IMG/VR virus record: IMGVR_UViG_3300018421_000010
Location: 1-64,000 of that record
Source of the DNA: a virus
DNA length: 64,000 bases
Strand: one strand, 5' to 3'
The first letter of the stretch is position 1; each line of letters starts with the position of its first letter. The translations under genes were made by a program, and so were the position numbers. This document shows, one piece after another, positions 28,553 through 58,979 of the stretch. The notes beneath the pieces are model-generated. The model was given only the letters and a program-made list of their open reading frames with translations, made no database searches and was not told the DNA's origin.

Positions 28553-28952
28553 ACAACAACTTTTTAATTCTACTGCGGAAGAATTTACAGACGACTTAAA
28601 TTTAGTTAATATTCGCACAGAAGAAGATAGTGTTACTTGGGCAGTAAAACACTTTAACGAACGTGTAGACGAATGGGTATATCCTGCTAAAAGTTATTTT
28701 GTAGCAATATGTTATGCTTATTGGATTAGTTTAGATTTTCGTTACGACTTTATTGAACTGCTAGACGACAAAGACTTGTTAGCAGGCAACGATCCATACT
28801 TTAAAACTTATAGTGAAGATAAAGCAACTTACAATGCTATACTTGATCAGGTTGAACTACCTGATCCTTCATCTCAGATGGGAATGGTGCCCGACGTTCG
28901 ATCGTATTATGAGGAAGAGATGATGTTTGACGAGTATCCCCTACATAGTTAA
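28533..28952 (+). CDS. Hypothetical protein ending the plus-strand operon
   Basis: 139 residues, acidic, with a Trp/Tyr-rich middle (SYFVAICYAYWISLDFRYD). It begins 20 nt before the stop of the previous radical-SAM gene and its last 116 bases overlap the convergent radical-SAM gene on the other strand. No catalytic motif and no membrane segment are convincing. It could be a partner of the enzymes; the overlapped tail is less certain than the body. Confidence 0.55.
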   Translation: MLDWKIRQQLFNSTAEEFTDDLNLVNIRTEEDSVTWAVKHFNERVDEWVYPAKSYFVAICYAYWISLDFRYDFIELLDDKDLLAGNDPYFKTYSEDKATYNAILDQVELPDPSSQMGMVPDVRSYYEEEMMFDEYPLHS

Positions 28953-35589: not shown

Positions 35590-36296
35590 TCTGTTATTCC
35601 CTCATCAAATAATTCTAGCATATTATTTGCAACACCATGTTTTATTAATGTGTTATATAAGTCAGCACCTTGATACTTACTTTCATTGTTAAAAACTCTA
35701 ACATTTAAGTTACTAGTTGGCCACGGACCAAACTTATGTCCTAACAAATACAAAACATCAATAGCATATGTTGCTATATATACAATATTTAGCCCGATTT
35801 CTGTATCACTATCAGTGTATTCTAACTCTTCTGGCACAAGTTCTTTATACTTGTCGTTATATTTGCTGGCTTGATCAATACAGAACAATGCAACGTGTTG
35901 CATTTTGTCTAACAAATCGTCAAATAATTTTCCATGTTCATTAATATACTCGTCGATCATATCATTTGACCACAGAGTATTCATTGCAGCATCAACATTG
36001 TTATATTCTTGACCTAATTTTCTTTTTGCAATTAGTGCTATAATTCTAGCTAGTAAAGGTGCTTCAACTAGAAAATTAATTTTAATATATTCATTTAGTA
36101 GTTCTGCATCAACAGTGTCAAACTGTACTTTAAAGTTTGTGTTAGCAATATAGACTAAGATATGTTTTACAGATAATACTTTTTTACTTTCTTCATAATT
36201 TACATGAAGAGTGTAATCATCACTATCTGCTTTGATCTTATAAATTTCTGCTAGATCTGTTGGTTTTAAAGGTAGTATATAACTTTGTGTTGACAT
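35586..36296 (-). CDS. Unknown protein between precursors and radical-SAM genes
   Basis: 236 residues, soluble, mostly helical after an N-terminal beta part (residues 1-75, starting STQSYILPLKPTDLAEIYK). No CxxC, nucleotide-binding loop or membrane segment is seen. In ribosomal peptide clusters this position is often held by a leader-binding partner (RRE fold) or a chaperone; the N-terminal beta-region would be the place to look, but I cannot assign it. It overlaps the first radical-SAM gene by 4 nt and follows the 350-residue gene after 8 nt. Confidence 0.7.
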   Translation of the reverse strand: MSTQSYILPLKPTDLAEIYKIKADSDDYTLHVNYEESKKVLSVKHILVYIANTNFKVQFDTVDAELLNEYIKINFLVEAPLLARIIALIAKRKLGQEYNNVDAAMNTLWSNDMIDEYINEHGKLFDDLLDKMQHVALFCIDQASKYNDKYKELVPEELEYTDSDTEIGLNIVYIATYAIDVLYLLGHKFGPWPTSNLNVRVFNNESKYQGADLYNTLIKHGVANNMLELFDEGITE

Positions 36297-36304
36297 TGTG
36301 TCTC

Positions 36305-37357
36305 CTATACCAGTGGTTTTACTTTAAACAGCAAATACGGTATACGACTCTTACGCTTGTAGAAGAATTCTACTTCACTCCAAGCATTTCTAAGTGCTTC
36401 GTTATTTGCAAAATTAAATCCGCCCTCTGCTATTTGTACTACAATAGGAATAGTTTTAGCAAATTCTTTGTATACTTCTTCATATTCCCAATCTTCGTGG
36501 TTGTTAATGAGTTCTAAGAGTTCAGCATTATTGCCAACATCGTTCCAAAAATCTCTTAACACATAAAGTGCTTGCATGCGATTTTTATTTTGGAATGTAT
36601 CTTTAACAAATTGTACTTTGTCCCATGATGAATTACCGTTTGCATGGAACCAATCAATAATACCGTTAATAACACTAATATAACCAATTTTATTTTGTAG
36701 CATACCAATTACTTCATCAATCATTTTTTCACTGTGAACAGTGAATTTTTCACGCAAATGATTTTGTGTTACTAAGTTAATTTCTGCATACGTTTCATTT
36801 TCGTTATACTTGTCATTAATAAAGAAAAGTATATCATAACCCCAATGTTTACTACTTGGAGTGCCCATGTTATGCCATTCATTTTTAGCGTAAACATCTT
36901 CAACACAACCGTTAATATCATTTTCTGTAAATGTAGTGTATGTTGCGTATGTAATATCTCTTTGGAACACTAACTTTAAAAAGTCTTTTACTACATCTTT
37001 AACATCTTTGTTAGTTGCTGTTTGTAGTAGAGATGCAATATACTTTGCATATACACGAATTAAATCTAATGCATCATCAAATAATAAAAACTCTTTGTCA
37101 TTGTTTGACAAATATTCCCATGTGTTTATTTGATCAGTTGTAGTGAACGAAAGCATATCCGGATTTGCATTAGGATAATCTGTAAGTAGTGTATTAACAT
37201 ACGAGTCTCGTACTTGTGAGTGTCCTTCCGGTGCTACTAACACCATTTTTCTTGTTTGATCGCCTGCCCAAGGACTCTCTGCTAAAGCACTTACCATAGA
37301 GCTAGACTTTCCTAAATATTTCTTATTGTTGATATAATAAAAACTTTCACCTATCAT
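36305..37357 (-). CDS. Unknown protein directly after the candidate precursors
   Basis: 350 residues, acidic, helix-rich. The N-terminus (YYINNKKYLGKSSSMVSALAE) contains GKSSS, which looks like a partial P-loop but lacks the full GxxxxGKS pattern; it is followed by MVLVAPEGHSQVRDSYVN, so an ATPase- or nucleotide-binding fold cannot be excluded. I do not recognise the family. The ATG overlaps the stop codon of the 127-residue gene (TAATG), so it is translationally coupled to the precursors and is probably part of the same pathway. Confidence 0.7.
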   Translation of the reverse strand: MIGESFYYINNKKYLGKSSSMVSALAESPWAGDQTRKMVLVAPEGHSQVRDSYVNTLLTDYPNANPDMLSFTTTDQINTWEYLSNNDKEFLLFDDALDLIRVYAKYIASLLQTATNKDVKDVVKDFLKLVFQRDITYATYTTFTENDINGCVEDVYAKNEWHNMGTPSSKHWGYDILFFINDKYNENETYAEINLVTQNHLREKFTVHSEKMIDEVIGMLQNKIGYISVINGIIDWFHANGNSSWDKVQFVKDTFQNKNRMQALYVLRDFWNDVGNNAELLELINNHEDWEYEEVYKEFAKTIPIVVQIAEGGFNFANNEALRNAWSEVEFFYKRKSRIPYLLFKVKPLV

Positions 37358-37740
37358 TATCTTCTTCCCCTTGAGCCGTGACAGCTATAATGGCAACTAC
37401 TATGACAGATTCTCCAATCAAAATATGTGTTAGTTAGTCTGCCTTCTATTTGGTTAACTGTGCGTGAAATACAGTTAGTTGCAAAATTTTGTACCTCACT
37501 TGCATATACTTTTAGATTATCTCCAATGTTATTTGGAAGATCTGCTGTACTATATGTTCCTTGTCCTGCGTTTACATACTCATAACGTCTGTTACCGTAA
37601 GCAGTTCCAGAACCCCAACCACTTACGTTTGCATAATAGCACGTAGCATTGAAGTTAATAGTCTTGTCAAAAGATCTAAGACGTAGATACGCATTGTTAT
37701 AGTATCTTGTTTCTAAAGAAGCGTGTGACTCGCCTGCCAT
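37357..37740 (-). CDS. CHxS-tail protein 2, candidate modified peptide precursor
   Basis: 127 residues. It shares with its neighbour FDKT(I/V)N, GTAYGNRRYEYVNA (about residues 47-60), YFD(W/F) and the final RICHSSCHYSCHGSRGRR (110-127). Cys lie at 112, 116 and 120, each followed by His-Xaa-Ser, so the tail is three tandem CHxS tetrads and a basic end. Upstream Cys occur near 33 and 89. The layout (long variable front, short conserved Cys-rich tail, radical-SAM genes next door) suits a ribosomal peptide with a C-terminal core. Alternatives are a metal-binding virion tip or small structural protein. Start and stop overlap neighbours as TAATG. Confidence 0.7.
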   Translation of the reverse strand: MAGESHASLETRYYNNAYLRLRSFDKTINFNATCYYANVSGWGSGTAYGNRRYEYVNAGQGTYSTADLPNNIGDNLKVYASEVQNFATNCISRTVNQIEGRLTNTYFDWRICHSSCHYSCHGSRGRR

Positions 37741-38114
37741 TACCTTCTCCCTCTACTGCCGTGACAACTATAATGGCAACTTGTATGACAAATACGAAAA
37801 TCAAAATACTGATTAGTTATTCGACTTTCGATTAAATCACAAGTTCTTGTTATAGCATTTAGTGCCTGGTCTATCATATGTCCTGCATCTACTAGTGTAG
37901 TATTGGGATACACGTTTCCGTTGTAATCACTGTTAGGAGCATTTACATACTCATAACGTCTGTTACCATATGCAGTACCTGCGTTGTAACCGCCATAGTT
38001 TTGATTAGTATAAACTGTGGCTGCTACGTTTACAGTTTTATCAAACCCTCGCAATTGAGCACCAGCATTGCCGGTAAAATAATCTCTTGCGGATGTTCGA
38101 TTCATGTTTCCCAT
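37740..38114 (-). CDS. CHxS-tail protein 1, candidate modified peptide precursor
   Basis: 124 residues, paralogue of the next gene. The tail is RICHTSCHYSCHGSRGRR at residues 107-124 with Cys at 109, 113 and 117. Compared with its paralogue, eight of the 18 tail codons differ, but seven of these changes are silent and one is Ser to Thr, so the peptide is conserved by selection. The ATG lies 3 nt after the stop codon of the 4221-residue fibre, with AAGG about eight bases upstream, so it is part of the late fibre transcript. It could be displayed on the virion after modification. Confidence 0.72.
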   Translation of the reverse strand: MGNMNRTSARDYFTGNAGAQLRGFDKTVNVAATVYTNQNYGGYNAGTAYGNRRYEYVNAPNSDYNGNVYPNTTLVDAGHMIDQALNAITRTCDLIESRITNQYFDFRICHTSCHYSCHGSRGRR

Positions 38115-38117
38115 GGA

Positions 38118-41100
38118 TTATACCTTAACTTCAACTACATCTGTACCGTCTTCAATAGCAACACCAATTAATAATGTGTATTCTGCTATAGTACTTAGTT
38201 CGTCTATAGCACGGCCTGCACCGTCCTGATCAGCAATAATATACTGACCTTTCTTAGCAGAACCGTTAATCTTACATGGAACACGACCTTTTAGTGCAAC
38301 GAACGGCCACATTGGATCATCTCTGTTATCGTCTGTTTGGTTCATCATCAAACCTGGCTGTGTTGATACAACGCCTGCTAGTTTCATGCCTTCTTTGTAT
38401 AGTGTAACTTCTTTGTCGCCACCAATACCTAGTACTGTACCTGGAGCATACACTGCGTCTGCTTCGTATTTCTCTGCCAAGTCAGCCCAGTTAGCACTTG
38501 CTGCTGTACCTTGATAAACACCGCTGTTGTCAACGTATGAAACATCTGTACCGTCACGTCTAAACTGAACAATACGATCGGAGTTAGCACCAGCTGCCAT
38601 GTAGAATCTGTTAGCATGATATTCAATCTTACCAACGTCATTACCTGGGTTACCAGTCCATGTTTCGTTTGCGTTTTCCATAAAGCGGATGCCTGGTGAG
38701 TTACCATCATTGTTGTATGAACGTAGTGCCCAGTTACCATCTTCGTTTAGGAAACCTTGTGATGCATCGTCTGCATATAGTCTACCATAGATAGTGTTTG
38801 AACTGTTGTTTAAACGTAGTTCACATGATCCAGTATTTGCAGAACGGAACGCCATTGCGTTTGTTTCATTTGGATAAATGTGCCAGCCTGCGTAGTTGCC
38901 ACCTTGCCAGTAAATACCTGAGTTGCTTTCAATGCGTACCCAGTTATCAACATATAGCTCGCCTGCAATGTTTGCACCGTCGGAACGTGTTTGAACTTTC
39001 CAACTACCATTGTGCATCATTTCAGTTTGGCCGCCGTGTACACCGTAGAACAACCACTGGTTATTTACATCGTTGTAGATACCAGTTGCTGTACCGCCAT
39101 CATGCATGAATACTGCACGACCATCAATGCTAAAGCCTTCCCAGTTACCATAACCACTACCGCTAATTTGGATTGAACCGTAGTCGCCTGTTGGTTCTCT
39201 TAAGTAACGTGTAGTTTGGTTACCAACTGCAATAAACTGTTTAACAACTAGTCGACCATCTGTTGTAAGTGCCATAGCACCAGCTGCTACGCCGTCACCA
39301 TCATGTCTCCACTTCCAACCACGGTCTGTGTCGTTGTTCATTGTAAAGGTCATTGCATAGTCATTCAACCAACCCATTGTTTGACCACTAAACATACCAA
39401 TTGAGTATGAGCTGTTGTTCCAAACACGTAGTTTGTCGTAACTATCGCTGCCTTCGCCGTCAATGTAACCAATGTTATAACGTGTGCCACTTGCAAACAA
39501 GTCTGGGAATGTACCAGCGTTTAGATTGCTTGCATTACGGAAGAATGCACTATCATTACCATCTAGTAAGTCTGCATCTAAGCCGCTGCCGCTACCATCG
39601 TTACCAGCATGCCATACTTTGTATGCATTAGCACCCATTGACCAACCGCCAACTGCTAGATCGTTTGTACTTCCGTCTAGACCAAAGTGTACAGCATAGT
39701 CGCCACCAATATGGAATGTTAAGAATGCATCATATTGGTTAGCACCGTTACCTTGATATAGTTGTAATGTGTTAACTTCACCAGTGTTTTGAATTGTTGT
39801 TGCAGGAGCACTAATTGTAAACACACCGCCACTAAATGCAGCACCAGTATCAACACGTAGGAAGCTACTTGCATGCAATCCGTCTAGTAGGTCTGCGTTT
39901 AAGCCTGAACCTGCACCGTCGTTAGCGTCAGTCCAAATAGCACCGCCGTTAACATAACCAGTTGTAGCGTTAAAGCTACCATTAACATCTAGGTTATAAG
40001 TACCGCTTGGATCTTTGTTAATACCAACTTTACCATCACCGCGTACTGAGAATACAATGTTACCATTAGTTTGACTTACGTCATTGTTAACACGGAAGAA
40101 TGTGCTTGCCGCAGCATTGTTTGAGTTAGTGTCAAGTCTTACGTTAACGTTGTTGTAAGAGTTAATGCTTAAACTATCGCCAGCACCCCAAGTATCGTTA
40201 CGTGAACTAATACCATGGTTTACATAGCCGCCAATTGCACCGTAGTTTCCATCCCAGTCAAAGCTAATGCCATGTACTTTTGCAAGTTCGCCTGTTGTGC
40301 CACCGCTTGAAATAAAGCGTCTATTAGTGTCAATAGTTTCAACGCCGCCTACATTATAACTGTTACCGTCAATAGCACCAGTTAGTGTAAGTTCAGCAGC
40401 AACTAAGTTACCACCAACGTACAAGTTCTTACCAAAGCTACCACCACCGTCTACACGTAAAGCACCTGTTGTAGTGCTTGTTGCTTGGTCAGCGGAGTTA
40501 ACGTGCAAGTAACCACTTGATGCACCAATGTCAATAGCAGTTGCAGCACCACCAATGTTGAGTGTAGTAACTGTATCGTTTAATAGATCAAATGTTGCTT
40601 GGTTAGTACCCAAACTACTTGCTTGTGTAATAACGTTTTTGTTAAGTCTAATAGCATCGCCTGCGAAACTTGCTACAAGTTCGCTTGTTTGGATGCCGCT
40701 ACCTGAACCAATACTTTCGGAACCATAAATGTTAACTATAGCACCAGTACCTGAACCAGTACCTGGGTTTGGTTTTAGATTTAGTTCAGAACCGTTAACG
40801 TTAAACTGTCCAGTAATTGGACCTTTTACACCAATTGTACCTGATTGTTTAGAACCTTGTGAACCTCTACCAAACTCTAGTTTGTGAGTATGTGCATCAG
40901 TACCACTTACTTCAACGCGATTAACTTGTGTTGTTGAAGTACTGCCTGAAGTTCCTGAATAGCCTGTGTCAATAAACACAGATCCTGCTACACCACTACC
41001 AGTGCTTGCACCGCCTTGTACTGTTAGATCTGCACCTTGCTTGTTAGTACCTAATGCATTTGGTGCTTTGATTACTGAATCAACTGGAGCAGTTTCTACT

Positions 41101-44100
41101 GCATCGCCACCTACAACCATTGTAGTATTTCTAACTGCTAGTGTACCAGATTTGTCAGCACCTAAAGTAATTAATGTTGCTGCTCTACCAATACTTAGTG
41201 ATGTAACTGTAGTATCGTATACAGTTGCACTTGTCTTAGTAGTTTTAATATCACCACCATCAACATTAAAGTCACCGTCAATTTGTAGGTTACCTAGTGA
41301 ATCAAGAACCATGCGTTCTGCTAAGAAGCCTGCTGCCATCAAGTTAAACTTGAAGCTAAAGTCTTCAGAACCAAACGTTACATCTGATGCAACAGCGTCA
41401 ATAGTACCACCAACTTCTCTGTTGTTGTTTGCAGTTTCTACTTGGAACTGCATACCAACACCAATACCTACTGCTGGTGTGTTAGAAACATCGTGACGTA
41501 TTTCAAGTGGTCTTGAAACACCAAAGTTGTTAGTATCTTCTACGAACGGAGCAACGTCATTTGACCATGCTGGGTTTCCTAATTCGTCAACAACCATAAC
41601 AGCACCTTGGCTACCAATTGGTAGTCTGTTTAGTGTTGTTGGTGATGTTGCATAAATCATATCACCTGCAATATACTGATCAAGTGCTGTACCACCTTTG
41701 TTAACAGGCACAGGGTTTAACATGTTACCTGGATCTAAGAAGTATTGACTGTCTAGTCCGTCAAGTGTACCTGCATCAAGTACGCCTGCTTTTAGTTCAA
41801 CTTCACCTGAATTTACATTAAACTGTGCTTTGCTGTATGAAGCAACACCTTCGTTTGTAAAGCTCTGATTACCTAATGTATCATCTGCTCTGTCAATATC
41901 AAGTTGTGTATCTTTATAATAGAAGTTTTGTCCACCGCTAGTATAGAAGTTACCAGTAATGTTTAGTGGTGAGTTAAGTGCTGTTCTTGTAGTTCTTACT
42001 GCATAATCCCAGCTGCTGTCACCTTTTAAGTATGTGTTACTGTTAGCAGAACCAATAGATGCAAGTCTTGATGTACTAATAACACCCGAAACAATGTTTG
42101 AAGCATCAACGTTTGCACTACCAGTTAGTGCCCAGTTTGCAGAATTTTTACTTGAAGTATTAATTTCGCCGTAAACTGTGATATTCTGATGGATAAAGTC
42201 TGCACTACCACTACCAGTTTGAACAAAGTTAATTGCACCTTGTACAACACCGTTTACACTGTTTAGAGCATCTTCTCTAAATTCGTGTACTGTGAAAGTG
42301 TTTTGACTTACTGTACCTGCGTAGTAGTAAGATCCACTTGACATTCCTGTTGGAGGGTTAGTACCTACAAAGCGGAATGCTCTACCAGCTGTAAATCCGT
42401 GGTTTGGTGAGTAGATCTTATCTTTACGTGTGTCAACGTTGTTGATAATAAGTGCATGTGTACCAGTTGAACTTACAGTAAAGTTAACTTTTGTACTTGC
42501 ATTTAAATCATACCTGTTGTATAATTCAATAGTGTTAGCATCAATTACTTTTACAAAGTAACTTTCACCCTGCAACATACCTCCAATTGGAGTGTTTGGT
42601 GAGCTTGCATAGTTAACAACGTCACCGTCATCAAATATATGACTTGTTATTTCAATCTGTGAATTTGCATAGTCAACATTACCACCGTTTGCTAGTGTAT
42701 CTGCATTAAATGCATTAAGCGAGTTACCACCTAGTGCAACAGTATCAACTTGTGCATTGTTATCTTCAATGTACTCGTTAGTACTTGTTGATGCAACAAA
42801 CTTGCCTGCAAGTAGATCAACATACAGTCTGTTGTCAACGCTAAGTGCTGAAATTTGGAAAGCTGAACTTGACTGTCCGCCTAAGTTTCCTGTTGCTGCA
42901 CTCAATACATCTGTTGTTGTATAACCACTACCACCTCTAACCAAGTCAACGCTTGATACTTGGCCGTTAGTAACTGTGATATCTGCTCTTGCACCAGTAC
43001 CTGAACCGTTAACATTTGTTAGTGGTACGTTGTTATATGTTAAAGAACCTGTTGTAGGAACATAACCTGAACCGTTACTAATATTTGCTAAGTCAACTGC
43101 AAGTAGTACACCTTCAGCTTGTGCAGTAACAACACCTTGTGTTTTTGAGTTAGCTGCTGTAACAGTTACACCGTTTGTAAATGATGCTCCAGCAGGCTCA
43201 TATCTCAAATACTGACTGTCACTGTCTTGAATCATTGTGTACTGAATATCACGTGTTTCAGATGAGCCAGTGTTTGTGATGTATGTTGTAGTGTTGTTGC
43301 CATTTTTGCTTAGTGTATTAGCACTAATATTGTTGCTAAATGTGCCAACAATGTTTGTTAGGTAAACAGTAGTTGCACCACCGTTGTCTTCATCAACAAT
43401 AGCAGTAGCACCTGTGTTTGCTTCAACAATTACATCATCTTCGTTAAACTGTGTTGGAGCACTTAGAGTAAACAGTGTACGTGGATAACGTTCTTGTGCA
43501 ATGTCACCCTGTAATGGCTCTTGTGGTGGAATATCATCAGTTAGATCATATCTACCAAATTTTGTGTTTGTAGTGAACAAACTAAAGTTACGTGTTGCAG
43601 GAATAATATCTGCGTTCAACAAACCTTGTGCGTTCATTTGTGGAACAGCACCACTAACTGAGTTAGTAGATACGCTCTTATCAATAAAGTCACCTAGTCT
43701 GTTTGCTAAGAAGCTACGCTGTGCCAACTGTGTTGTCAAACGTGTATCTGTAGCACCACCTGGTTCGTTGTCACCTAGTCCTGGATCAGTTGAAATTGCT
43801 TCAATAACAACATCTGAAACTGCAAGTTTCAGTGCTGAAAGTTCACCAACTGTAACTGTGTTTTTAAATGTAATGTTACCAGTTCTGTTTTCTGCAACAA
43901 TGAAGTCACCAACTTTAAAGTCACCTAGTTCGTTAGTACCTGAAGAGTAAACTCGTCCTGGTAAGTCACTAAACTGTTCGTATTCTTCTCTTGTAATACC
44001 ACCGTTCTGTGGTAGAGCGTTATAGTCTGTACCAGAACCTGCATATTCCCAAGTGTGTGATGAACTGTTAACAATTGAAGGTCTATGGAAACGTATAAAT

Positions 44101-47100
44101 GTTCCCTGTAGGTTACCTGTGTTAGTTAACACACCACCAACAATAGTTGGATCAATAGTAAACTCTGCTGTGTACAAGTCTGTTCTAGAAGTAAAGCCTG
44201 TTACAGCAATGTTACTTTGTGGAATAGCACTACTATCATTGTCAATGATAGAAGTAGCATCAAAGAAGATTCTTGTTAGAGAACCGCTGTTTTCTGCTTT
44301 TTCTACTGAAACAGTAAGTGTGCGTGTTGCTGCTTCATATGTATAAACAAACGCTTTGTTTCTGTAGATACCAGTAGTTGCTTCAATAAGGTCGCCTGGG
44401 TTAAAGTTATAAGTTCCAGGAGCAAGTGTTAGTACTTGATACTTGTTGTGTGTTAGCTTGTTACCATCAGCGTCTTGAATAATATCATCAATGAAGAATT
44501 CTTCTGTTTGTGTTTCAAGCAAGTGATCACCACTTGACACTGCAACTAGATCTGCAACAAATCCTCTTGAATCATCTTGATACAATCTAATAATGTCATT
44601 AGTTAGAACTTCAACATAGTATAGACCTTGGTCAGCAAGTCCGTTAATTTCAATATTGTTGTTTCTGCGATATGTTACAGCATCACCTGTTACAAGTCCG
44701 TGTCCAACAATAGTAATTGTGTTAGCAGCAAGATCCAACGAACCTTCTTCATATACAGGATAGTTTGTACCTGTAAATGTTATTTCAGTTAGTGTTGCGT
44801 TATCATTAACTAGCGGAACTGCTGCTACTGTAATTTCCAATGCACCGCTGGTATTATCATAGACTGCATTTGTAATAGCCTGTGGACTATTAGCATTGTT
44901 AATATCAACAGTACCTCCAGAAACATAAGTTCCTAAGTTTCTACCTGCACCAACTTGAACAGTAAATGTTGTTGCTGTTACTGATGCTACTGTGTATGTT
45001 GCAGTATCACCGTAAAGTGTTCCAACTTCACCGCCGTTAAATGTTATTGTACTTGGAATAGTTTTGAAACTATTAGTAATATCATTTGCTAAGTTGTTTT
45101 CTTCGTCATCGTCATAGAAGCGTAAGATAAACTGGTTAACTGGAGTACGCTTAGTACCAACAGTAATAAGTTTTTGCTGTGATGCTTGAGCACCGACTTC
45201 TGCAACAACACCGCGGTCAAACACAAAGCTGTTTGCTGAGTAACCTGATGAACGTAGTGCATACAAACCAAAGTTAGTAGCAGAGTTAGTAACAGAAAGG
45301 TAAGCACCTGACTGACACCAACAACCGTTGCCTAGGAAGATTTGGAAACACGAAACGATCTGTGCATATGCATCGTTAGTTAGACGCCAACCAGTACCAC
45401 CAAATGATAACATGGTGTATGCGTTTGCAACCATTGACTTACCTTGTTCAGGTGTTTCACCAAATACTGGATTCTCAGCTTCGATAGCAAAACGTGGAAT
45501 GTTTGGTGTAATGACCTTTGAACCGTCTACCAAACAGCCGCTTAGTCCTAAAAACGAAATAATAGACACGTTCTGTACGTATGGTGACTGTGTAATAAGT
45601 GGACGTTCTCTTAGTCCTACATAGCCTGTACGATCAACACCAGTATCAAACGGATCGTCAAATGCTGTACAGAATCTACCTGTAAAGCTAGGTACGTTAA
45701 ATGCATCTAGACCGTCTTTGAATGTAATACCCAACAAGTAACAACCATTACGTACACGGAAAATATCTTGGTTAGCATTTAGCGGACGAACAATAGTTGT
45801 ACGCAAGTTATCACCAACAATAGATACATAGTCTGGAATAATAACTGGGTTATCTTCTTTGTATTCACCAGTTGATACCATAATGGTTGTGTAACTGATG
45901 TTAAACGCACCTTCAACTTCTGTTGGAATGTTTGGTGAGCTAGGACCGTTTTCAATAATATCAATAATAGTGTTGAATTCTGACTCAACAACACCTACTG
46001 TAGTTCCTTCAACATTCTTAGTTAGATCAGTAATCTGTCCAACTTGATTTTGATATAGTTTAGTGTTTACAACATTCTTTAGAATGTTATCTACAAGAGT
46101 TTGGAAGTATCTATTAGCAAGTATTGTTTGGAACTTAGTATCACCCGGAATAACAAGTGTAGTACCGTTATAGTATGCTTTACCTGCTTCAATAGCACGT
46201 TCGTTACCACCATAGATCAAATCATATTGGATAGCATCGATAAACAATCCAACGTCTCTGCGACAGAACGCAACATCATATACAAAGTTAGTAAAGTATG
46301 TGTTAATGTAACTAACAACTTCAGCTTGGATGTATGCTTTGTTTAGTGCAATCAAATCAGCTGCATTAAGAATGTTTGTATCATCTGTTGGAACAATAGC
46401 ACTTCTTAGTACAGTAATATTTTGTGATGCACTTACACCATCAATAATAATATCTTCAATTATGTCGCCAAGTTCACCAATTGTAGTAACTGCTGCTGCA
46501 CCACCTGGGTTCAGTGTGTCAGTAACTTGGGTTGAGTTAGTTTGCCAACTAACAACTGGATAGTTTTCAGCAACCTGTTGTGCAAGTCTAATTGCATGCA
46601 TAATACCATCAACTGTTTGTACAAGCTGGCGAGCAAGTGCAAACTGGCTGCTTTGTTTAAAGTAAGCAATCGCTGCTGCAACAGAGTTTGTAGTTCCGCC
46701 CCATGTTAGGTCAAAGTTAATAGCATCTAGAATGTAACCAACATCACGTCTACATGTTGTTTGGTTGTAGTTGCTTGAGAAGTTAATCCAACTTCCGTCA
46801 ACATATGCAACAGTTTCTTTTTGGATGAAAGTTTTGTTGCTTGTGATCAATGAATCAGCATTAACGTATTCTGTTGCTGTGTTTGCTGAACCGTTTGCAT
46901 TTACAGTAATGTACTGTGATGTTCCGTCTGTTACAAGATCAATAATAATATCAAGTAGTGCTCCAATAGTGTTTGCACTTGTGATGTCGCCCGGGTTTGG
47001 TCCATCAAATACTTGGCTTTCGGCTGAGTATGTTGGGCTTACTGTAACATTACGTACAACCTGTGTTGCAAGAGTTTTTAAGTGATTTAAACCATCAAGT

Positions 47101-50100
47101 GTTTCTGATAACTGTCCGCTGATAACAATAGCAGCATTTTGTTTATAATATGCAACTGCGGCTGCAATACTATTTGTATTACCACCGTGTGTCAGGTCAT
47201 ATTCAACAGCATCAAGAATTAATCCAATATCTCTACGACATGATGTTTGATCGTAAGTTAAACCTGGATGTTGAGCATTAATATATTCAATAACTTCTTC
47301 TGTAATAAAGTTAGTGTTAGACTGTAGCAATGCTTCAGAATTTAATGCACCAGTGTTTGTTGTTTTTGTAAAGCTATTTGTTGTACCAATACCGTTTTTA
47401 AGTATAGATATAACATCGTTAGTACGATCATAAACTAATTGTGCTACTGTATTGTTGCTTGGAGTTGCACCGTTAAGTGTTTGTGTAAATGTATTTTGAT
47501 ACAGATTAGGAACAGTATTTTGCAATACAACATTTGCTAAAAGATCTCTAGTATATTCTAGTGCATCAACTGTAGGCTGTAATTGAGCTTTAATAACCTC
47601 AACAGCATCACCTGTAATTTCGCCTGTTCCAGTAGTAACATTGTTGTAGTAACTAATACCAGCAAAAATACTTTCAGCATTACCACCGTGTTTAACGTCA
47701 TATTGAACTGCGTCAACAATTAGGCCAACGTCACGCTCACATTTAACAGGATCATAGTTAAAGTTACCAAAGTTTTCTTCAATAAATGCAACAGTTTCTG
47801 CTTTAATAAATTCTACGTTAGCTGCTAGTATAGCATTTGCATTTATTACATTTTGTACTAAACTTGGTACAGAGTTATTTGGATCAATATTTAAACCAAT
47901 AGTAGCACTGTCGCCATCGTTAATAATATCAACAATTAGTGTTTGTAATCCTGAAATAGCAGTTTGTGCCGACGCATCACCTGGATTAGATGGATCAGTA
48001 AACTGTCCAAATGTGCTTTGATAGCTTTGTGCAGGAGCTTGGTTTACAATTACTAGTTTAGCAAGATCAATAGCATAGTTAATACCGTCAAGTGTTTGTG
48101 TTAACTGGCTGTTAAGTGCAGTACTTGCACTATATTGATAGTAGGCTAGTGCTGCTTGAATACTTTCATTATTACCGCCATGTGTTATATCATAACGTAT
48201 TGCGTCAAGAATTAATCCAACATCTCTGCGGCACTTATTTTGATCATATATAAACAAGTTAGCATCAACATATGCAATAGCGTCATCAATTAATGTAGCT
48301 TTGTTAGTATTGATTTGTAATGCTGCGTCTTGTAATTGTTGGTCTGCCCAAGATATACTTGGGTAAGTTTTAGATGGTAAATTGTTAAGGTTACCAGCAG
48401 TAATAACATCTTCAATTATTTGTAGCAAGCCGTCGAGTGTTGTTGCTTCAGTGCTAGTTGCATTACCGCTTGAGAAGTTTTGTGCAACTACTGCTTGTTC
48501 AGCAGTTACTGAAATACCTTGTACTACATTGCTTACATGACCTGCTAAGAAGTTATAAGCATCAGCAGTAATAGTAGCTTCGCCAGCACCTAGTTGACTT
48601 GCTGCACCTACAAAATATGATTCAGCAGCAAGAACAGATGCACTGTTACCACCATAAACAATATCATAAGTTAAAGCGTCTACAATATATCCTACATCAC
48701 GTGAACATGCTGCTGTATCGTATGTGTGTGAAGGATAAGTGTTTGCAATATATGCAAGTACCTCTGCTTGTAGGAAGCTTCTGTTAGCTTGTAGTTGATC
48801 TCTTGCGTCACTTAAATCTTGGCTTGCACCAGTTGGGGCAGGGAATGTTAATGCATTTGCATTACCTACACCATTTTGTAAAATATCTATTACTTCGTCA
48901 AATGCAACAGTTGCTCTAGTGCTTGCTGTTGACCAACTAGACACATCGCTTAGTGCAAGAACATCTGTTTTAAGATTACCAATTGCTCCTACAGTTAGTG
49001 TTAATTGATTGCTTTGTAAGTATGCTGTGTTTGCACGTTGATACGCTAAACCTGCTGTTACAGCATTATAGTTAGTACCTAGTGCAATGTCTGCTGCTAC
49101 TGCATCTAGTATTAAACCAGAGTCTCTACGACATTTAGTTTCATCGTAAGTTGACTGATATTGTGAATCTAAATAACCAATAACTTCTTCTTTAATGAAG
49201 TCAGTGTTTTGTGTAATAAGTGTATCAGAATTAAGTCTAGCTGTGTCAGTAGTTATTACACCGTTTGCAGTACCAATGCCTGTGTTTAACAAGCTATAGA
49301 TAATGCTAAGATTATTATAGATTGTTGTTCCTTCTGCAGATGTGCCAGGAGTTAAACTTGTATCTTGTGCTACAGTGTTCTGATATAGATAATCAACAGT
49401 TTCACCTAGTACAACTTTTTGTGCAAGAGATCTTGCATAGTCAATACCTGCTAGTGTTTGAAACTTTTGATCAGAACGTACTAAAGATGCTTGTGCATTT
49501 AGATATGTAATACCAGCATAATGCGATTCTGCATTACCACTGTATAACAAATCATAGTTTGCAGCATCAATAATTAATCCTGTATCACGTGAACATTTTG
49601 CAGCATCAAATTGGAAGCCGCTGTATTTTTGATTTAAGAATGCAATAACTTCATCTTGAATAAATGTTTTGTTAGCATCTATAAGAGTTTCTGCATTTAA
49701 TATATCTGTATCTTGTGTTTGTGTTTCGTTAGGTTGAACACCACCAGTGTCACCTGTGTAGTAACTTAAAACTTTATCACCAAGTGCTGAAACTGTTGCT
49801 GATTCAGATGCTGTTGCAGTTTTAGTACCATCAAATTGCTGCTGTACTGCTGCTTGAGTATTATCTGTAATAGCAGTGTTAGTAACTACTGCTGTTGCAA
49901 GTTCTTTGATACGACGAAGACCATATTCAGTTGCAACGTCTTGTGCTTGTTTAACTAGTGCTGAACTTTCTAGTGCATAGAATGCACCAGCAACGCTTGA
50001 AGCTGCATCGCCGCCATAGCGTAAATCGTTTTCAATAGCGTCAACAATTAATCCAACATCACGCTCGCATTTTGCTTGATCATATGTAATATTAAATGCA

Positions 50101-50783
50101 TTTGAGCTAAATGCAATAACTTCGTCTTGTAAGAAGTCTCTGTTAACTTCCAATAGATCTTTTGCATCATACGCAGATTGTCCTGGATCAACAACTGGTG
50201 TAAAAATACCGTCAGATGCAATTTGTGCAGCACGTTTAATTGTTTTAACTGGTTGTAGACGACCGTCATTGTTGTCGTCACCGTATTGAGCACTTACATA
50301 AATTCTATTACCACCTAGTGAGCCTGGGTCACTCCACTGTGTTTGTCCAAAACCTAAGTTTTGAAGAATTTGTCCTTTACGTGCATCAGTATCAGGAAGT
50401 ATAATATCGTAGGAATCTGATAACTCTGAAGGTGCTTTAACGTTAACAGTATTTGATCCAAACTGTGATAATTCTCTAAACTTAACTGCACCTTGATCGT
50501 CAAGTTCTAAATCGTCCGCTAGAAAAACTTGGTTACCATCTATACGGAGTTTTTCTATGCCATCAACATCAACTGTAACAACACCATTTCCTTGGTCATT
50601 GACTATTACGCGAGTATCGCCTTTTTCAATCTGTTGTGTGATGTCTTTTATAGTGCCGTCGGACTGTTTGATAAACATTTTACCGTCGGCAGTGTTGATT
50701 GCAATTTCGCCCAAATCTAATTGTGCGGATTGTGGTTCCTGCCCGGTAACATTGTTTCTTTTATGTAATATTTTGTTTGCCAT
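38118..50783 (-). CDS. Giant tail fibre / virion protein, 4221 residues
   Basis: At 4221 residues this is the largest gene of the window. The N-terminus resembles phage fibre starts (QLDLGEIAINTADGKMF). A pectate-lyase-type opening (VSAQYGDDNNDG, then TIKRAAQIA at 162-190) is interrupted by nine copies of a 158-residue helical unit around YDxxKCxRDVGLIxDA, and the beta-helix continues with SYTTIMVSTGEYKEDNP and VSIVGDNLRTT. Later sections are beta-rich, with a TTGALRVDGGG..GKNLYVGG unit. The end, ADLAEKYEADAVYAPGTVLG to VEVKV, resembles the C-terminal chaperone/autoproteolysis domain of fibres. Probable receptor-binding device. Confidence 0.85.
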   Translation of the reverse strand: MANKILHKRNNVTGQEPQSAQLDLGEIAINTADGKMFIKQSDGTIKDITQQIEKGDTRVIVNDQGNGVVTVDVDGIEKLRIDGNQVFLADDLELDDQGAVKFRELSQFGSNTVNVKAPSELSDSYDIILPDTDARKGQILQNLGFGQTQWSDPGSLGGNRIYVSAQYGDDNNDGRLQPVKTIKRAAQIASDGIFTPVVDPGQSAYDAKDLLEVNRDFLQDEVIAFSSNAFNITYDQAKCERDVGLIVDAIENDLRYGGDAASSVAGAFYALESSALVKQAQDVATEYGLRRIKELATAVVTNTAITDNTQAAVQQQFDGTKTATASESATVSALGDKVLSYYTGDTGGVQPNETQTQDTDILNAETLIDANKTFIQDEVIAFLNQKYSGFQFDAAKCSRDTGLIIDAANYDLLYSGNAESHYAGITYLNAQASLVRSDQKFQTLAGIDYARSLAQKVVLGETVDYLYQNTVAQDTSLTPGTSAEGTTIYNNLSIIYSLLNTGIGTANGVITTDTARLNSDTLITQNTDFIKEEVIGYLDSQYQSTYDETKCRRDSGLILDAVAADIALGTNYNAVTAGLAYQRANTAYLQSNQLTLTVGAIGNLKTDVLALSDVSSWSTASTRATVAFDEVIDILQNGVGNANALTFPAPTGASQDLSDARDQLQANRSFLQAEVLAYIANTYPSHTYDTAACSRDVGYIVDALTYDIVYGGNSASVLAAESYFVGAASQLGAGEATITADAYNFLAGHVSNVVQGISVTAEQAVVAQNFSSGNATSTEATTLDGLLQIIEDVITAGNLNNLPSKTYPSISWADQQLQDAALQINTNKATLIDDAIAYVDANLFIYDQNKCRRDVGLILDAIRYDITHGGNNESIQAALAYYQYSASTALNSQLTQTLDGINYAIDLAKLVIVNQAPAQSYQSTFGQFTDPSNPGDASAQTAISGLQTLIVDIINDGDSATIGLNIDPNNSVPSLVQNVINANAILAANVEFIKAETVAFIEENFGNFNYDPVKCERDVGLIVDAVQYDVKHGGNAESIFAGISYYNNVTTGTGEITGDAVEVIKAQLQPTVDALEYTRDLLANVVLQNTVPNLYQNTFTQTLNGATPSNNTVAQLVYDRTNDVISILKNGIGTTNSFTKTTNTGALNSEALLQSNTNFITEEVIEYINAQHPGLTYDQTSCRRDIGLILDAVEYDLTHGGNTNSIAAAVAYYKQNAAIVISGQLSETLDGLNHLKTLATQVVRNVTVSPTYSAESQVFDGPNPGDITSANTIGALLDIIIDLVTDGTSQYITVNANGSANTATEYVNADSLITSNKTFIQKETVAYVDGSWINFSSNYNQTTCRRDVGYILDAINFDLTWGGTTNSVAAAIAYFKQSSQFALARQLVQTVDGIMHAIRLAQQVAENYPVVSWQTNSTQVTDTLNPGGAAAVTTIGELGDIIEDIIIDGVSASQNITVLRSAIVPTDDTNILNAADLIALNKAYIQAEVVSYINTYFTNFVYDVAFCRRDVGLFIDAIQYDLIYGGNERAIEAGKAYYNGTTLVIPGDTKFQTILANRYFQTLVDNILKNVVNTKLYQNQVGQITDLTKNVEGTTVGVVESEFNTIIDIIENGPSSPNIPTEVEGAFNISYTTIMVSTGEYKEDNPVIIPDYVSIVGDNLRTTIVRPLNANQDIFRVRNGCYLLGITFKDGLDAFNVPSFTGRFCTAFDDPFDTGVDRTGYVGLRERPLITQSPYVQNVSIISFLGLSGCLVDGSKVITPNIPRFAIEAENPVFGETPEQGKSMVANAYTMLSFGGTGWRLTNDAYAQIVSCFQIFLGNGCWCQSGAYLSVTNSATNFGLYALRSSGYSANSFVFDRGVVAEVGAQASQQKLITVGTKRTPVNQFILRFYDDDEENNLANDITNSFKTIPSTITFNGGEVGTLYGDTATYTVASVTATTFTVQVGAGRNLGTYVSGGTVDINNANSPQAITNAVYDNTSGALEITVAAVPLVNDNATLTEITFTGTNYPVYEEGSLDLAANTITIVGHGLVTGDAVTYRRNNNIEINGLADQGLYYVEVLTNDIIRLYQDDSRGFVADLVAVSSGDHLLETQTEEFFIDDIIQDADGNKLTHNKYQVLTLAPGTYNFNPGDLIEATTGIYRNKAFVYTYEAATRTLTVSVEKAENSGSLTRIFFDATSIIDNDSSAIPQSNIAVTGFTSRTDLYTAEFTIDPTIVGGVLTNTGNLQGTFIRFHRPSIVNSSSHTWEYAGSGTDYNALPQNGGITREEYEQFSDLPGRVYSSGTNELGDFKVGDFIVAENRTGNITFKNTVTVGELSALKLAVSDVVIEAISTDPGLGDNEPGGATDTRLTTQLAQRSFLANRLGDFIDKSVSTNSVSGAVPQMNAQGLLNADIIPATRNFSLFTTNTKFGRYDLTDDIPPQEPLQGDIAQERYPRTLFTLSAPTQFNEDDVIVEANTGATAIVDEDNGGATTVYLTNIVGTFSNNISANTLSKNGNNTTTYITNTGSSETRDIQYTMIQDSDSQYLRYEPAGASFTNGVTVTAANSKTQGVVTAQAEGVLLAVDLANISNGSGYVPTTGSLTYNNVPLTNVNGSGTGARADITVTNGQVSSVDLVRGGSGYTTTDVLSAATGNLGGQSSSAFQISALSVDNRLYVDLLAGKFVASTSTNEYIEDNNAQVDTVALGGNSLNAFNADTLANGGNVDYANSQIEITSHIFDDGDVVNYASSPNTPIGGMLQGESYFVKVIDANTIELYNRYDLNASTKVNFTVSSTGTHALIINNVDTRKDKIYSPNHGFTAGRAFRFVGTNPPTGMSSGSYYYAGTVSQNTFTVHEFREDALNSVNGVVQGAINFVQTGSGSADFIHQNITVYGEINTSSKNSANWALTGSANVDASNIVSGVISTSRLASIGSANSNTYLKGDSSWDYAVRTTRTALNSPLNITGNFYTSGGQNFYYKDTQLDIDRADDTLGNQSFTNEGVASYSKAQFNVNSGEVELKAGVLDAGTLDGLDSQYFLDPGNMLNPVPVNKGGTALDQYIAGDMIYATSPTTLNRLPIGSQGAVMVVDELGNPAWSNDVAPFVEDTNNFGVSRPLEIRHDVSNTPAVGIGVGMQFQVETANNNREVGGTIDAVASDVTFGSEDFSFKFNLMAAGFLAERMVLDSLGNLQIDGDFNVDGGDIKTTKTSATVYDTTVTSLSIGRAATLITLGADKSGTLAVRNTTMVVGGDAVETAPVDSVIKAPNALGTNKQGADLTVQGGASTGSGVAGSVFIDTGYSGTSGSTSTTQVNRVEVSGTDAHTHKLEFGRGSQGSKQSGTIGVKGPITGQFNVNGSELNLKPNPGTGSGTGAIVNIYGSESIGSGSGIQTSELVASFAGDAIRLNKNVITQASSLGTNQATFDLLNDTVTTLNIGGAATAIDIGASSGYLHVNSADQATSTTTGALRVDGGGSFGKNLYVGGNLVAAELTLTGAIDGNSYNVGGVETIDTNRRFISSGGTTGELAKVHGISFDWDGNYGAIGGYVNHGISSRNDTWGAGDSLSINSYNNVNVRLDTNSNNAAASTFFRVNNDVSQTNGNIVFSVRGDGKVGINKDPSGTYNLDVNGSFNATTGYVNGGAIWTDANDGAGSGLNADLLDGLHASSFLRVDTGAAFSGGVFTISAPATTIQNTGEVNTLQLYQGNGANQYDAFLTFHIGGDYAVHFGLDGSTNDLAVGGWSMGANAYKVWHAGNDGSGSGLDADLLDGNDSAFFRNASNLNAGTFPDLFASGTRYNIGYIDGEGSDSYDKLRVWNNSSYSIGMFSGQTMGWLNDYAMTFTMNNDTDRGWKWRHDGDGVAAGAMALTTDGRLVVKQFIAVGNQTTRYLREPTGDYGSIQISGSGYGNWEGFSIDGRAVFMHDGGTATGIYNDVNNQWLFYGVHGGQTEMMHNGSWKVQTRSDGANIAGELYVDNWVRIESNSGIYWQGGNYAGWHIYPNETNAMAFRSANTGSCELRLNNSSNTIYGRLYADDASQGFLNEDGNWALRSYNNDGNSPGIRFMENANETWTGNPGNDVGKIEYHANRFYMAAGANSDRIVQFRRDGTDVSYVDNSGVYQGTAASANWADLAEKYEADAVYAPGTVLGIGGDKEVTLYKEGMKLAGVVSTQPGLMMNQTDDNRDDPMWPFVALKGRVPCKINGSAKKGQYIIADQDGAGRAIDELSTIAEYTLLIGVAIEDGTDVVEVKV
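46200..50200 (-). repeat. Nine in-frame repeats in the giant fibre
   Basis: Nine copies of a unit near 475 nt (about 158 residues), spaced from about 50084 to 46281. Each carries a core Y-D-x-x-K/T-C-x-R-D-x-G-L-I/Y-x-D-A, followed by D-x-x-x-G-G-N-x-x-S and AYY. The Cys and the RD are kept in all nine. The spacing and divergence point to old duplications followed by drift, not a recent expansion. Confidence 0.85.
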
Positions 50784-56810: not shown

Positions 56811-57251
56811 TTAGCCATCACCTTCAGTATCGTCAGCACCTGTTAGTACGTCATCTGCTGTACCAAGAGTTGCGTCAACACCAGCACCAATGCCTGTACC
56901 AGCTTCTTCAACTGCTACTGTTGCACCTGTACCTGTGAAGTCCCAATCAATTCTAGAACCATTGTCCATGGTTAGAACACGACCGGAAATTTTAGTTACT
57001 TGACGAGCTGTTCCGCCATCGTCTACAGTGATTGACATTTCACCTGCTGCTAGTGCTGCTGATGCTTTGTCTACAAGGTAACAAGTACCTGTATCTGTAC
57101 CGCCTGCATTTGAAACTTTGAAACGCTTTGAACCAGTTTGTTTTACAATGTAACCTGGAGTTGATCCGTTACCTGAATTAAACTGAACTTTGATTTCGCT
57201 ACCGCCTGCTGTAGGTGCACCGAAATATCTTTTGTTAATTGGTCTTCCCAT
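56811..57251 (-). CDS. Small virion structural protein
   Basis: 146 residues with a beta-rich core. MGRPINKRYFGAP, SEIKVQFNSG and VKQTGSKRFKVSN are seen in small structural proteins of marine T4-like phages. The acidic tail (VDATLGTADDVLTGADD) is likely flexible. It has its own promoter, a 94-nt structured leader and a strong AGGAG site, consistent with high late expression. It is the first gene of the fibre block. Confidence 0.7.
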   Translation of the reverse strand: MGRPINKRYFGAPTAGGSEIKVQFNSGNGSTPGYIVKQTGSKRFKVSNAGGTDTGTCYLVDKASAALAAGEMSITVDDGGTARQVTKISGRVLTMDNGSRIDWDFTGTGATVAVEEAGTGIGAGVDATLGTADDVLTGADDTEGDG

Positions 57252-57345
57252 TTGTTTTCTCCTATAAAGTAGTCCTATCCGGGTTCTATCCGGTACGCTG
57301 TGGGTAACAGCATAAGTCCGCCTTGCGGCACACTATCTGACACAA
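57252..57345 (-). promoter_or_regulatory. Structured 5' leader of the 146-residue protein
   Basis: After the late motif, the minus-strand leader has three possible hairpins: GCC-GCAA-GGC, GCTGT-TACCC-ACAGC, and CCGG..CCGG around ATAGAAC, then AGGAG before the ATG. It could stabilise the mRNA or be a ligand or protein site; no known riboswitch class was recognised. Confidence 0.4.
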
Positions 57346-57383: not shown

Positions 57384-57406
57384 AAAAAAACCCGCCGAAG
57401 CGGGTT
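57384..57406 (-). terminator. Intrinsic terminator after pqqA-like gene
   Basis: AACCCGC and GCGGGTT form a seven-pair stem around a four-base loop (CGAA), followed on the minus strand by seven T. Confidence 0.85.
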
Positions 57407-57451: not shown

Positions 57452-57523
57452 CTAGCGGTTCATTACATACATTGTTACTTCGAAACCAAAACGCATTTCT
57501 TCTGCTATAGGTTTTGTCCACAT
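57452..57523 (-). CDS. pqqA: PqqA-like peptide, 23 residues
   Basis: Too short for ordinary gene finders. From the ATG at 57523 the product has 23 residues, exactly the size of many PqqA proteins. It has MWTKP at 1-5, R11, GFEVTMY at 13-19 and a final NR. In PqqA the Glu at 15 and Tyr at 19, in a conserved ExTxY, are the two residues joined to make the PQQ cofactor; both are present here. AAAGGAGA lies 5-12 bases upstream. The closing terminator and the riboswitch-led leader show a real transcription unit. No pqqB-E genes were found in the window; one radical-SAM gene of the phage or the host's PqqE might act on it. Confidence 0.88.
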   Translation of the reverse strand: MWTKPIAEEMRFGFEVTMYVMNR

Positions 57524-57575
57524 ATGCTTCTCCTTTCAAATAATATTTAAACATAGATGAAAGGAAAAAGCATAC
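57521..57575 (-). promoter_or_regulatory. Inverted repeat sequestering the pqqA ribosome-binding site
   Basis: In the minus-strand RNA, TATGCTTTTTCCTTTC (57574-57559) can pair with GAAAGGAGAAGCATA (57537-57523), about 15 pairs with one bulge, around a 21-base AU-rich loop. The paired region contains the Shine-Dalgarno AAAGGAGA and the first base of the ATG, so translation may be gated. Confidence 0.6.
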
Positions 57576-57584
57576 GTAAAATCA

Positions 57585-57671
57585 TTAAAGACTGCTCAAT
57601 ATAAAATTGATTCTATTTCTTCGGTGCTGAATGATTAGTTGTTTGTAGCACCATAGTGTGAAGTTGTCCAT
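57585..57671 (-). CDS. Small ORF downstream of the riboswitch (28 residues)
   Basis: From the ATG at 57671, preceded by AGGAGA with eight bases spacing. The product starts MDNFTLWCYKQL and is basic in the middle (HRRNR). Downstream-peptide riboswitches are known for preceding short ORFs of this type, and this ORF has exactly that position, between the aptamer and pqqA. Function unknown. Confidence 0.5.
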   Translation of the reverse strand: MDNFTLWCYKQLIIQHRRNRINFILSSL

Positions 57672-57690: not shown

Positions 57691-57743
57691 GGGTTAAAGT
57701 GCGTTCCTTCGCATTATGCTACTTCCGTCCCGTAGGATGAACG
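57691..57743 (-). ncRNA. Glutamine-II / Downstream-peptide type riboswitch
   Basis: On the minus strand the blocks CGTTCATCC (57743-57735), GGACGGAAGTAG (57730-57719) and GAAGGAACGC (57710-57701) match the glnA/Downstream-peptide consensus that binds L-glutamine. P1 pairs CGTTC with GAACG; P2 is a stem closed by the stable C(UACG)G loop; P3 is GCA/TGC. A TTAACCC follows at about 57697-57691. The 5' end of the aptamer matches the expected transcript start of the late motif at 57749-57758. This class is known from cyanobacteria, marine metagenomes and cyanophages. Confidence 0.85.
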
Positions 57744-57748
57744 TAAAA

Positions 57749-57758: not shown

Positions 57759-57785
57759 AAAAAAATAGGCCCCTAAGGGCCTATT
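57759..57785 (-). terminator. Intrinsic terminator after gp23
   Basis: AATAGGCCC and GGGCCTATT form a nine-pair stem with a four-base loop, followed on the minus strand by seven T (57759-57765). It ends the head-gene transcript. Confidence 0.85.
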
Positions 57786-57809
57786 TTAGTGTTTTATAAA
57801 AAATAAAAC

Positions 57810-58979
57810 TTAGCTGAAGCTTACGTTAGAGATCGCAACACGCTCAACGTAGTCCGCTGCATTACCAAGAGATGATGCAGTGTTGTTTAGCTCAACATAA
57901 CCATAACGTGTCATGAAGCTAACTACTGGCTCGAATGTGTCTGGATCTAGAACAACGCCGCTGCTCATCAATGGAATGTATGGGCAGTAGAATGCTGCTG
58001 CATCTGCTTCAGATGAACCTTTGTAACCAACTAGTACGTCAGTGTCGTCTGCTGCATATGTATCAACGTAGATTCTCATTGCGTTGTTTAGTGTACCAAC
58101 GAACTTAGTGTTTGTTGGTGCTTCGAAAGTACCTTCTGTAGTACGAGCAAATGCACTTGTAGTTGCAGACTGTAGGATTGTCAATGCTTGTGGTGAAACC
58201 ACTGCAAAGTTACCTGCACCTCTACGTGTACGCTGTGCAATTTTGTTTGCTTGTCTGTTGATTAGAACTGCAAGTGCTGCATGCTCATCACCAACAAATG
58301 TTGCTGTACCAGATACTGCTGCCTGGTTGAATGTTTCACTTGCTGTACCAGCTAGTGAACGTAGTGAACCTAGGATTTCTTGGTCAATCTCAGTTGTAAT
58401 TTCCTGAGCAAGAGCTGCCATGATTTCAGCTTCAACGTCAATGCCCTGTTGAGCTTGTGCGTCTTGAGCTGCTTCAAAAGTCCAGCGAGCTGATAGCTTT
58501 CTGGATTTTGCTTCAACAGTTTGCTTGAGGATTTGGATTGACATCTTACGTCCTGGAGCACCTTCAAGTGTTGCAGTTGCATCTGCTTTACCATTTGGAT
58601 CAGTGCCTGCACCTGAATATGCAGTTGCAATCTTAAATGGTGATAGAGCTTCGTCACCTGCTGTTACGTTATCGTTTGATTCAGCATAACGTACTCTTAA
58701 TGTGTGGATCTGACCCACTGGACCTGTCATTGGTTGTACACCAACTAACTCGTTTGCGATAGTTGTTGGCATTACACGTCTGATGACTGGTAAAATGACT
58801 CTGTTTAGAGTCGCGACGTTACCGGCAGAAGTGGCACCAGCTGTTGCACTTTCTGACAAATACTTGCGAGTATTTTCAAGTGTTACAGCCATAACTGACT
58901 TACGATTGCCTTCAAGGCCTTCGAGCAGTGCTGTTTTAGTGTCCTGCCAGCGGCTTTCTAGTAGTTCTGACATTTTCAT
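57810..58979 (-). CDS. 23: Major capsid protein gp23-like
   Basis: 389 residues against 521 in T4. LNRVILPVIRRVMPTTIANELVGVQPMTGP at about 60-90 is the most conserved T4-like capsid segment (shown here in parts only: VILPVIRRVMPT, ELVGVQPMTGP). The mid-part GRKMSIQILKQTVEAKSRKL and the end FMTRYGYVELN are also typical. Cleavage by gp21 after LSE at 41-43 (an (I/L)xE site) would give a mature start at SATAG. It forms the hexons of the head. The next gene downstream is the terminator at 57759; gp22 lies 7 nt upstream. Confidence 0.95.
   Translation of the reverse strand: MKMSELLESRWQDTKTALLEGLEGNRKSVMAVTLENTRKYLSESATAGATSAGNVATLNRVILPVIRRVMPTTIANELVGVQPMTGPVGQIHTLRVRYAESNDNVTAGDEALSPFKIATAYSGAGTDPNGKADATATLEGAPGRKMSIQILKQTVEAKSRKLSARWTFEAAQDAQAQQGIDVEAEIMAALAQEITTEIDQEILGSLRSLAGTASETFNQAAVSGTATFVGDEHAALAVLINRQANKIAQRTRRGAGNFAVVSPQALTILQSATTSAFARTTEGTFEAPTNTKFVGTLNNAMRIYVDTYAADDTDVLVGYKGSSEADAAAFYCPYIPLMSSGVVLDPDTFEPVVSFMTRYGYVELNNTASSLGNAADYVERVAISNVSFS

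Follow-up and report, generated by a model that had tools for sequence, protein, structure and literature searches.

PqqA is the peptide that bacteria consume to make the cofactor PQQ. PqqE joins a Glu and a Tyr of PqqA that are spaced four residues apart, and linkage of pqqA to pqqBCDE is usual, though not required. The closest described relatives of the peptide considered here are the PqqA peptides of the Methylophilaceae (PF08042/TIGR02107). In hosts of this type, XoxF and PQQ synthesis are core functions, and multiple pqqA genes are found with single copies of the other pqq genes (PMC4109929). In a methylotroph with five pqqA genes, expression of pqqA1, pqqA3 and pqqE rises with PQQ formation (PMC9851590). 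Viral copies have also been reported, namely in VP_266 from Lake Baikal, a T4-like methylotroph virus with both PqqA and a methanol dehydrogenase (Coutinho et al. 2020, PMC7678222), and in a 2026 reservoir study that lists viral pqqA among phosphorus-cycle genes (PMC13188868). Among cultured phages of OM43, Venkman, MEP301 and Melnitz, which represent three distinct viral groups, were the sole isolates before MEP401 and MEP402 were added in 2023 (PMC10580990). No paper naming pqqA in cultured methylophages was found in a literature search that was made without most subscription journals.

The window, i.e. the whole 64,000-nucleotide stretch of DNA analysed here, is part of a 117,792-base (117.8 kb) IMG/VR contig. 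It includes a 23-codon ORF that encodes a PqqA peptide. The features at this locus, in minus-strand order and ahead of the next gene (56811-57251), are:

57810-58979, minus strand, gene for the major capsid protein (gp23-like), the upstream neighbour of the pqqA unit
57762-57787, no strand assigned, terminator-like hairpin between the capsid gene and the riboswitch
57698-57745, minus strand, glutamine riboswitch aptamer, glnA type, RF01739 (51.3 bits, gathering threshold 35)
57585-57671, minus strand, 28-aa ORF MDNFTLWCYKQLIIQHRRNRINFILSSL with a Shine-Dalgarno sequence, between the riboswitch and pqqA
57544-57553, minus strand, TGTTTAAATA, candidate T4-like late promoter element of pqqA, proposed from its motif
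57530-57536, minus strand, Shine-Dalgarno sequence AAAGGAG of pqqA
57452-57523, minus strand, pqqA, 23-aa PqqA precursor peptide MWTKPIAEEMRFGFEVTMYVMNR, assigned from its reading frame and PqqA family profiles
57389-57406, minus strand, predicted intrinsic terminator 3' of pqqA, a G+C hairpin followed by a T run
57249-57332, minus strand, freshwater-2 cis-regulatory RNA, RF02980 (76.6 bits), outside the pqqA unit

The peptide includes E15 and Y19 within EVTMY and has a C-terminal NR. It scores 42.2 bits (E=7e-11) against Pfam PF08042, for which the cut-off is 21.1, and 38.5 bits (E=7e-10) against NCBIfam TIGR02107, for which the cut-off is 20. Hence, both curated models place it in the PqqA family and the E15/Y19 pair is present. 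An HMM built without the window peptide gave 58.0 bits for the pqqA ORF, while the runner-up among the 1801 small ORFs of the window scored 6.0 and the maximum in 60 order-1 Markov windows was 18.1 bits. A longer, 49-aa frame overlaps pqqA, but it is broken by a stop in a relative (L304) where the pqqA frame is intact. There was no match to pqqA in PHROGs. PqqB-E were detected by tblastn neither in the window nor in the rest of the record, and PqqD and PqqE had no match across the whole record (PqqE even at E<=10). This ORF is therefore confirmed as a genuine, full length, phage-encoded PqqA. An earlier note on this DNA had described a 23-residue PqqA-like ORF with both cross-linked residues, a strong ribosome-binding site, a terminator, and no pqqB, C, D or E gene in the window. 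These descriptions and the coordinates were correct, and the strand, which that note did not give, is minus, with AAAGGAG at 57536-57530 preceding the ATG and the hairpin and T run at 57406-57389. The riboswitch, the 28-aa ORF and the freshwater-2 RNA were missing from that note.

In length, MWTxP start, EMRFGFEVTMYVMN core and cross-linked residues the peptide resembles Methylophilaceae PqqA, of which stand-alone copies also occur in the hosts. Its core is identical to that of the Methylophilaceae peptide, so that the phage gene has a homologous host metabolic gene. The window copy differs in being phage-borne, with no PqqB-E in the record, and it lies beside the capsid gene, between it and other phage genes. 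Baikal VP_266 is similar in being a T4-like methylotroph virus with PqqA, for which the same role has been proposed. However, a methanol dehydrogenase like that of VP_266 was not seen when the ORFs of the window record were read by eye, and by capsid and terminase the window virus is nearest to jumbo phages. As PMC7678222 had already proposed a viral PqqA, the novelty implied in the earlier note is reduced. As far as the literature searched shows, what is new is the presence of pqqA in every named cultured OM43 phage and, as a stand-alone gene, in many viral contigs. The test made of the cross-linked Glu and Tyr, the repeated occurrence of pqqA beside the capsid gene in a jumbo-like lineage and the adjoining glutamine riboswitch are new in the same sense.

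When phage records were searched with the PqqA peptide, matches of 82-87 % identity were found in six named methylophage types, namely Venkman, P19250A, MEP301, MEP401, MEP402 and Melnitz (four strains), and in an uncultured podovirus. Hence, pqqA is present in all five OM43 phage isolates covered by PMC10580990 and in the LD28 phage P19250A. The named phages, all phages of Methylophilales, share the stand-alone peptide with the window virus, but belong to unrelated lineages and carry the gene at other sites, mostly with no CDS called. Specifically, in Venkman, P19250A, MEP301 and MEP402 the annotation has no CDS at pqqA, and in Melnitz-1 and the podovirus a hypothetical CDS on the reverse strand covers it. 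Melnitz also has a glutamine riboswitch (PMC9004378), of the same aptamer family and likewise in a methylophage. However, the gene downstream there is the tmRNA gene, ssrA, whereas in the window the 28-aa ORF and pqqA are downstream.

IMG/VR and bacterial genomes were scanned using degenerate DNA patterns for the PqqA core. The frequencies obtained are lower bounds, and the IMG/VR contigs are mostly fragments. The GFEVTMY pattern was found in at least 120 IMG/VR stretches, and among the matches listed 120/120 lie in a PqqA-like ORF. PqqB-E neighbours were found at none of the 120 viral pqqA loci listed, compared to 21 genome loci. Large ORFs from 88 of these pqqA loci match various phage families of portal, terminase and helicase proteins. 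Thus, pqqA recurs, mostly unannotated, in unrelated phages of Methylophilaceae. About a dozen viral peptides (e.g. MKWETPSFEDLRFGFEVTMYINASN) look different from those of Methylophilaceae, and their phages may infect other bacteria that make PQQ. Two matches in apparent Acinetobacter phages were rejected, one (H11) because the contig is bacterial and includes a pqqBCD-radical-SAM operon, the other (H12) because it is an equal match in another contig of the same deposit. CAKLQF020000010.1 (L011), deposited as an Acinetobacter phage, is a piece of bacterial chromosome with such an operon.

The EMRFGFEVTMYVMN core was found in at least 120 bacterial genome loci, and all of the titles listed are Methylophilaceae-compatible, namely Methylotenera, Methylophilus, Methylopumilus, OM43 or compatible higher taxa. 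On this basis, i.e. from the peptide alone, we consider a PQQ-making methylotroph, with methanol dehydrogenase as the user of the cofactor, to be the very probable host. Sixteen such genomes were sampled. Each has 1-12 copies of pqqA. Most of the bacterial genome loci sampled have no PqqB-E neighbours. PqqE scored over the cut-off in 15 of the 16, one of which has two; the exception, with none over the cut-off, is a 0.9-Mb OM43 genome. Orphan pqqA genes of the hosts could not be tied to xoxF, which was not present within the genome loci fetched, or to umuDC, which was present in only about six of them and is therefore not a general neighbour. In some Methylophilaceae chromosomes (L137, L199), orphan pqqA flanks or interleaves umuDC.

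The capsid protein and terminase of the record are of the T4 superfamily, and the nearest relatives are Phosso, PA5oct and GAP32/CBB (69-71 % identity for the capsid protein and 43-55 % for the terminase). As these phages have genomes of 285-470 kb, what the record covers may be just a part of a jumbo-phage genome. The remainder of the record, judged by eye, consists mainly of structural genes. Two genes that lie among them are giant, encoding 4221 aa (window 38118-50783) and 4639 aa (record positions 82901-96820).

L304, L400 and L401 likewise have pqqA immediately after the capsid gene. In L304, which is from the contig that also includes L104, the genes and RNAs follow one another as in the window, and the distance between riboswitch and pqqA is identical. 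In G054 and G055, whose capsid protein is 92.6 % identical, pqqA directly follows the capsid terminator and the riboswitch is absent, while in L124 and L336 pqqA occupies the same capsid-side site on the opposite strand. However, L304 is alone among the 80 nearest capsid relatives fetched in having pqqA in its flanks. L399, with a capsid protein 93 % identical, has neither pqqA nor the riboswitch, and other relatives that lack pqqA retain the riboswitch and the small ORF. As relatives differ in its content, we consider the capsid-side slot to be variable, with pqqA as one occupant. The 28-aa ORF is conserved in L304 and in the pqqA-less relatives L266, L271 and L303, and the peptide has the consensus MDxFTxWCxxxLIxQHRxxxINF in several relatives. 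The capsid gene is followed by a glutamine riboswitch and then a small ORF in L266, L271, L303, L263, L311 and L331. In three of these a manA-type RNA, RF01745, lies in the slot that pqqA occupies in the window (L271:7433-7637, L263:4256-4465 and L331:6385-6590; one is below the gathering score). The freshwater-2 RNA, which directly precedes the gene at 56811-57251, is kept in relatives.

No terminator was predicted between the riboswitch and pqqA. However, pqqA has its own promoter-like element, and in G054 and G055 it is present without the riboswitch. The TGTTTAAATA element was also found upstream of pqqA in L304, L400, L401 and L124. Six of the eight window copies of the GATAAATA motif are found 15-103 bases ahead of gene starts. 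Motifs of this type could thus plausibly act as late promoters, and TGTTTAAATA is a plausible late promoter of pqqA. TATAAATA was also considered as a late promoter, but it has just two matches in the window and GATAAATA fits the gene starts better.

Because the searches were made with patterns, the conservation of codons 13-19 is partly set by the pattern used, and a pattern that does not specify the E and Y codons is the only unbiased test for codons 15 and 19. With that pattern, E and Y were kept in 120/120 of the viral matches listed. Over 136 distinct viral pqqA genes, pN was 0.09 and pS 0.54 (codons inside the search pattern are biased). From these comparisons of sequences, the whole viral PqqA peptide is under purifying selection. 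A methanol dehydrogenase gene was found in 1 of 34 viral contigs with pqqA, a combination already reported for the Baikal viruses. The stand-alone occurrence of pqqA, the retention of E and Y, a pN below pS and the contig with methanol dehydrogenase together favour a functional precursor for host enzymes. We consider it probable (roughly 75 %) that the phage pqqA is an auxiliary metabolic gene which supplies the substrate of PQQ synthesis, rather than an enzyme, to the PqqB-E of the host and sustains methanol oxidation. The suggestion in the earlier note that the peptide is supplied to a PQQ-making host is thus the best-supported reading, given the Methylophilaceae core and hosts with PqqE. 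The sugar oxidation it also mentioned is not favoured, as the host enzyme would be methanol dehydrogenase rather than a sugar dehydrogenase (PMC4109929).

Under this supply reading, PqqA would be made late in infection, with pqqA expressed as a separate unit that follows the capsid gene. The host PqqD/PqqE and downstream enzymes, being catalytic and persistent, would convert it to PQQ. As each PQQ uses up one PqqA while the enzymes are catalytic, supply of the peptide could limit PQQ once host transcription falls. The PQQ formed would keep the periplasmic methanol dehydrogenase (XoxF/MxaF) loaded, and phage replication would draw electrons and formaldehyde from the continued methanol oxidation. 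Three steps of this scheme are ones that we infer, namely a limiting supply of PqqA in the infected cell, a rise in PQQ and a benefit of methanol oxidation to the phage. PqqA may not be limiting, since overexpression of pqq genes gave limited gains in PQQ in some strains (PMC9851590). If the supply reading is correct, methylotrophs that rank among the most abundant in aquatic habitats are kept oxidising methanol by their phages by way of one 23-residue peptide and not an enzyme. The gene for it is missed by gene callers and phage protein libraries. The peptide also offers an inexpensive marker by which phages can be assigned to Methylophilaceae hosts, and with cultured OM43 phage-host pairs the limiting-precursor idea is testable now. 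A wider proposal, which we regard as tentative and rather doubtful, is that pqqA is a near-universal, overlooked 'substrate gene' of Methylophilaceae phages that has been gained repeatedly by unrelated lineages and whose dose limits the cofactor, and that in the branch that includes the window its expression is additionally set by the glutamine riboswitch, so that PQQ supply would follow the nitrogen status of the cell during infection.

Other roles can be envisaged for the same peptide. A stand-alone PqqA at high dose would compete for PqqD/PqqE, and could be a decoy that binds these host proteins and lowers PQQ, thereby slowing the host or blocking rival phages. However, a decoy does not need the cross-linked residues, yet both were kept in all of the free-codon matches listed; purifying selection across the whole peptide also disfavours it, and the methanol dehydrogenase in one pqqA-containing contig points toward stimulation. 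A decoy is accordingly quite unlikely. The PQQ made might instead serve another use, such as release to neighbours at lysis. PQQ was among the vitamins and cofactors added to OM43 medium (PMC9004378) and exchange between cells is conceivable, but release brings the phage no direct selective benefit, and XoxF and PQQ synthesis are core in the hosts (PMC4109929), making this use improbable too. Chance capture of a non-functional passenger would be easy from hosts that have up to 12 pqqA genes, with most sampled genome loci lacking PqqB-E neighbours. Against this, the peptide is under purifying selection, pqqA is in every named methylophage type, and several relatives have it at one constant site, complete with a ribosome-binding site and a terminator of its own. 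We therefore consider a passenger very unlikely.

The earlier note had also raised the alternative that PqqA is the substrate of the phage's own radical-SAM enzymes. It would then become a different modified peptide. The window has nine radical-SAM-like genes (25583-35589), and one more, the tenth, is found elsewhere in the record (record position 114287-115756). The first of the nine is SPASM-like: it includes a SPASM domain and is weakly similar to peptide maturases. Five form a divergent tandem family. In favour of this alternative, the cluster and pqqA are both present in G054 and G055. However, none of the ten genes is PqqE (no match even at E<=10), the PqqD chaperone is absent, and the five-member family is absent from the pqqA-containing relative G050 (98.5 kb) and from 14 other contigs with pqqA. 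As pqqA occurs without the family in these 15 cases, PqqA is unlikely to be its substrate. Conversely, a further relative, G056, has the five-member family and the capsid region but lacks pqqA. The radical-SAM cluster also adjoins conserved CHxSCHYSCH peptides that are candidate substrates of its own. The alternative is not supported, and we rate it as highly improbable. Two paralogous proteins of ~125 aa with the conserved C-terminus CHxSCHYSCH[GA]SRGRR are encoded in window 25583-38114, and such proteins were found in seven other viral contigs (see L385-L391). The five-member family and the two peptides ending CHxSCHYSCHGSRGRR recur in other contigs, and the radical-SAM genes with these peptides look like an undescribed phage peptide-modification (RiPP-like) system.
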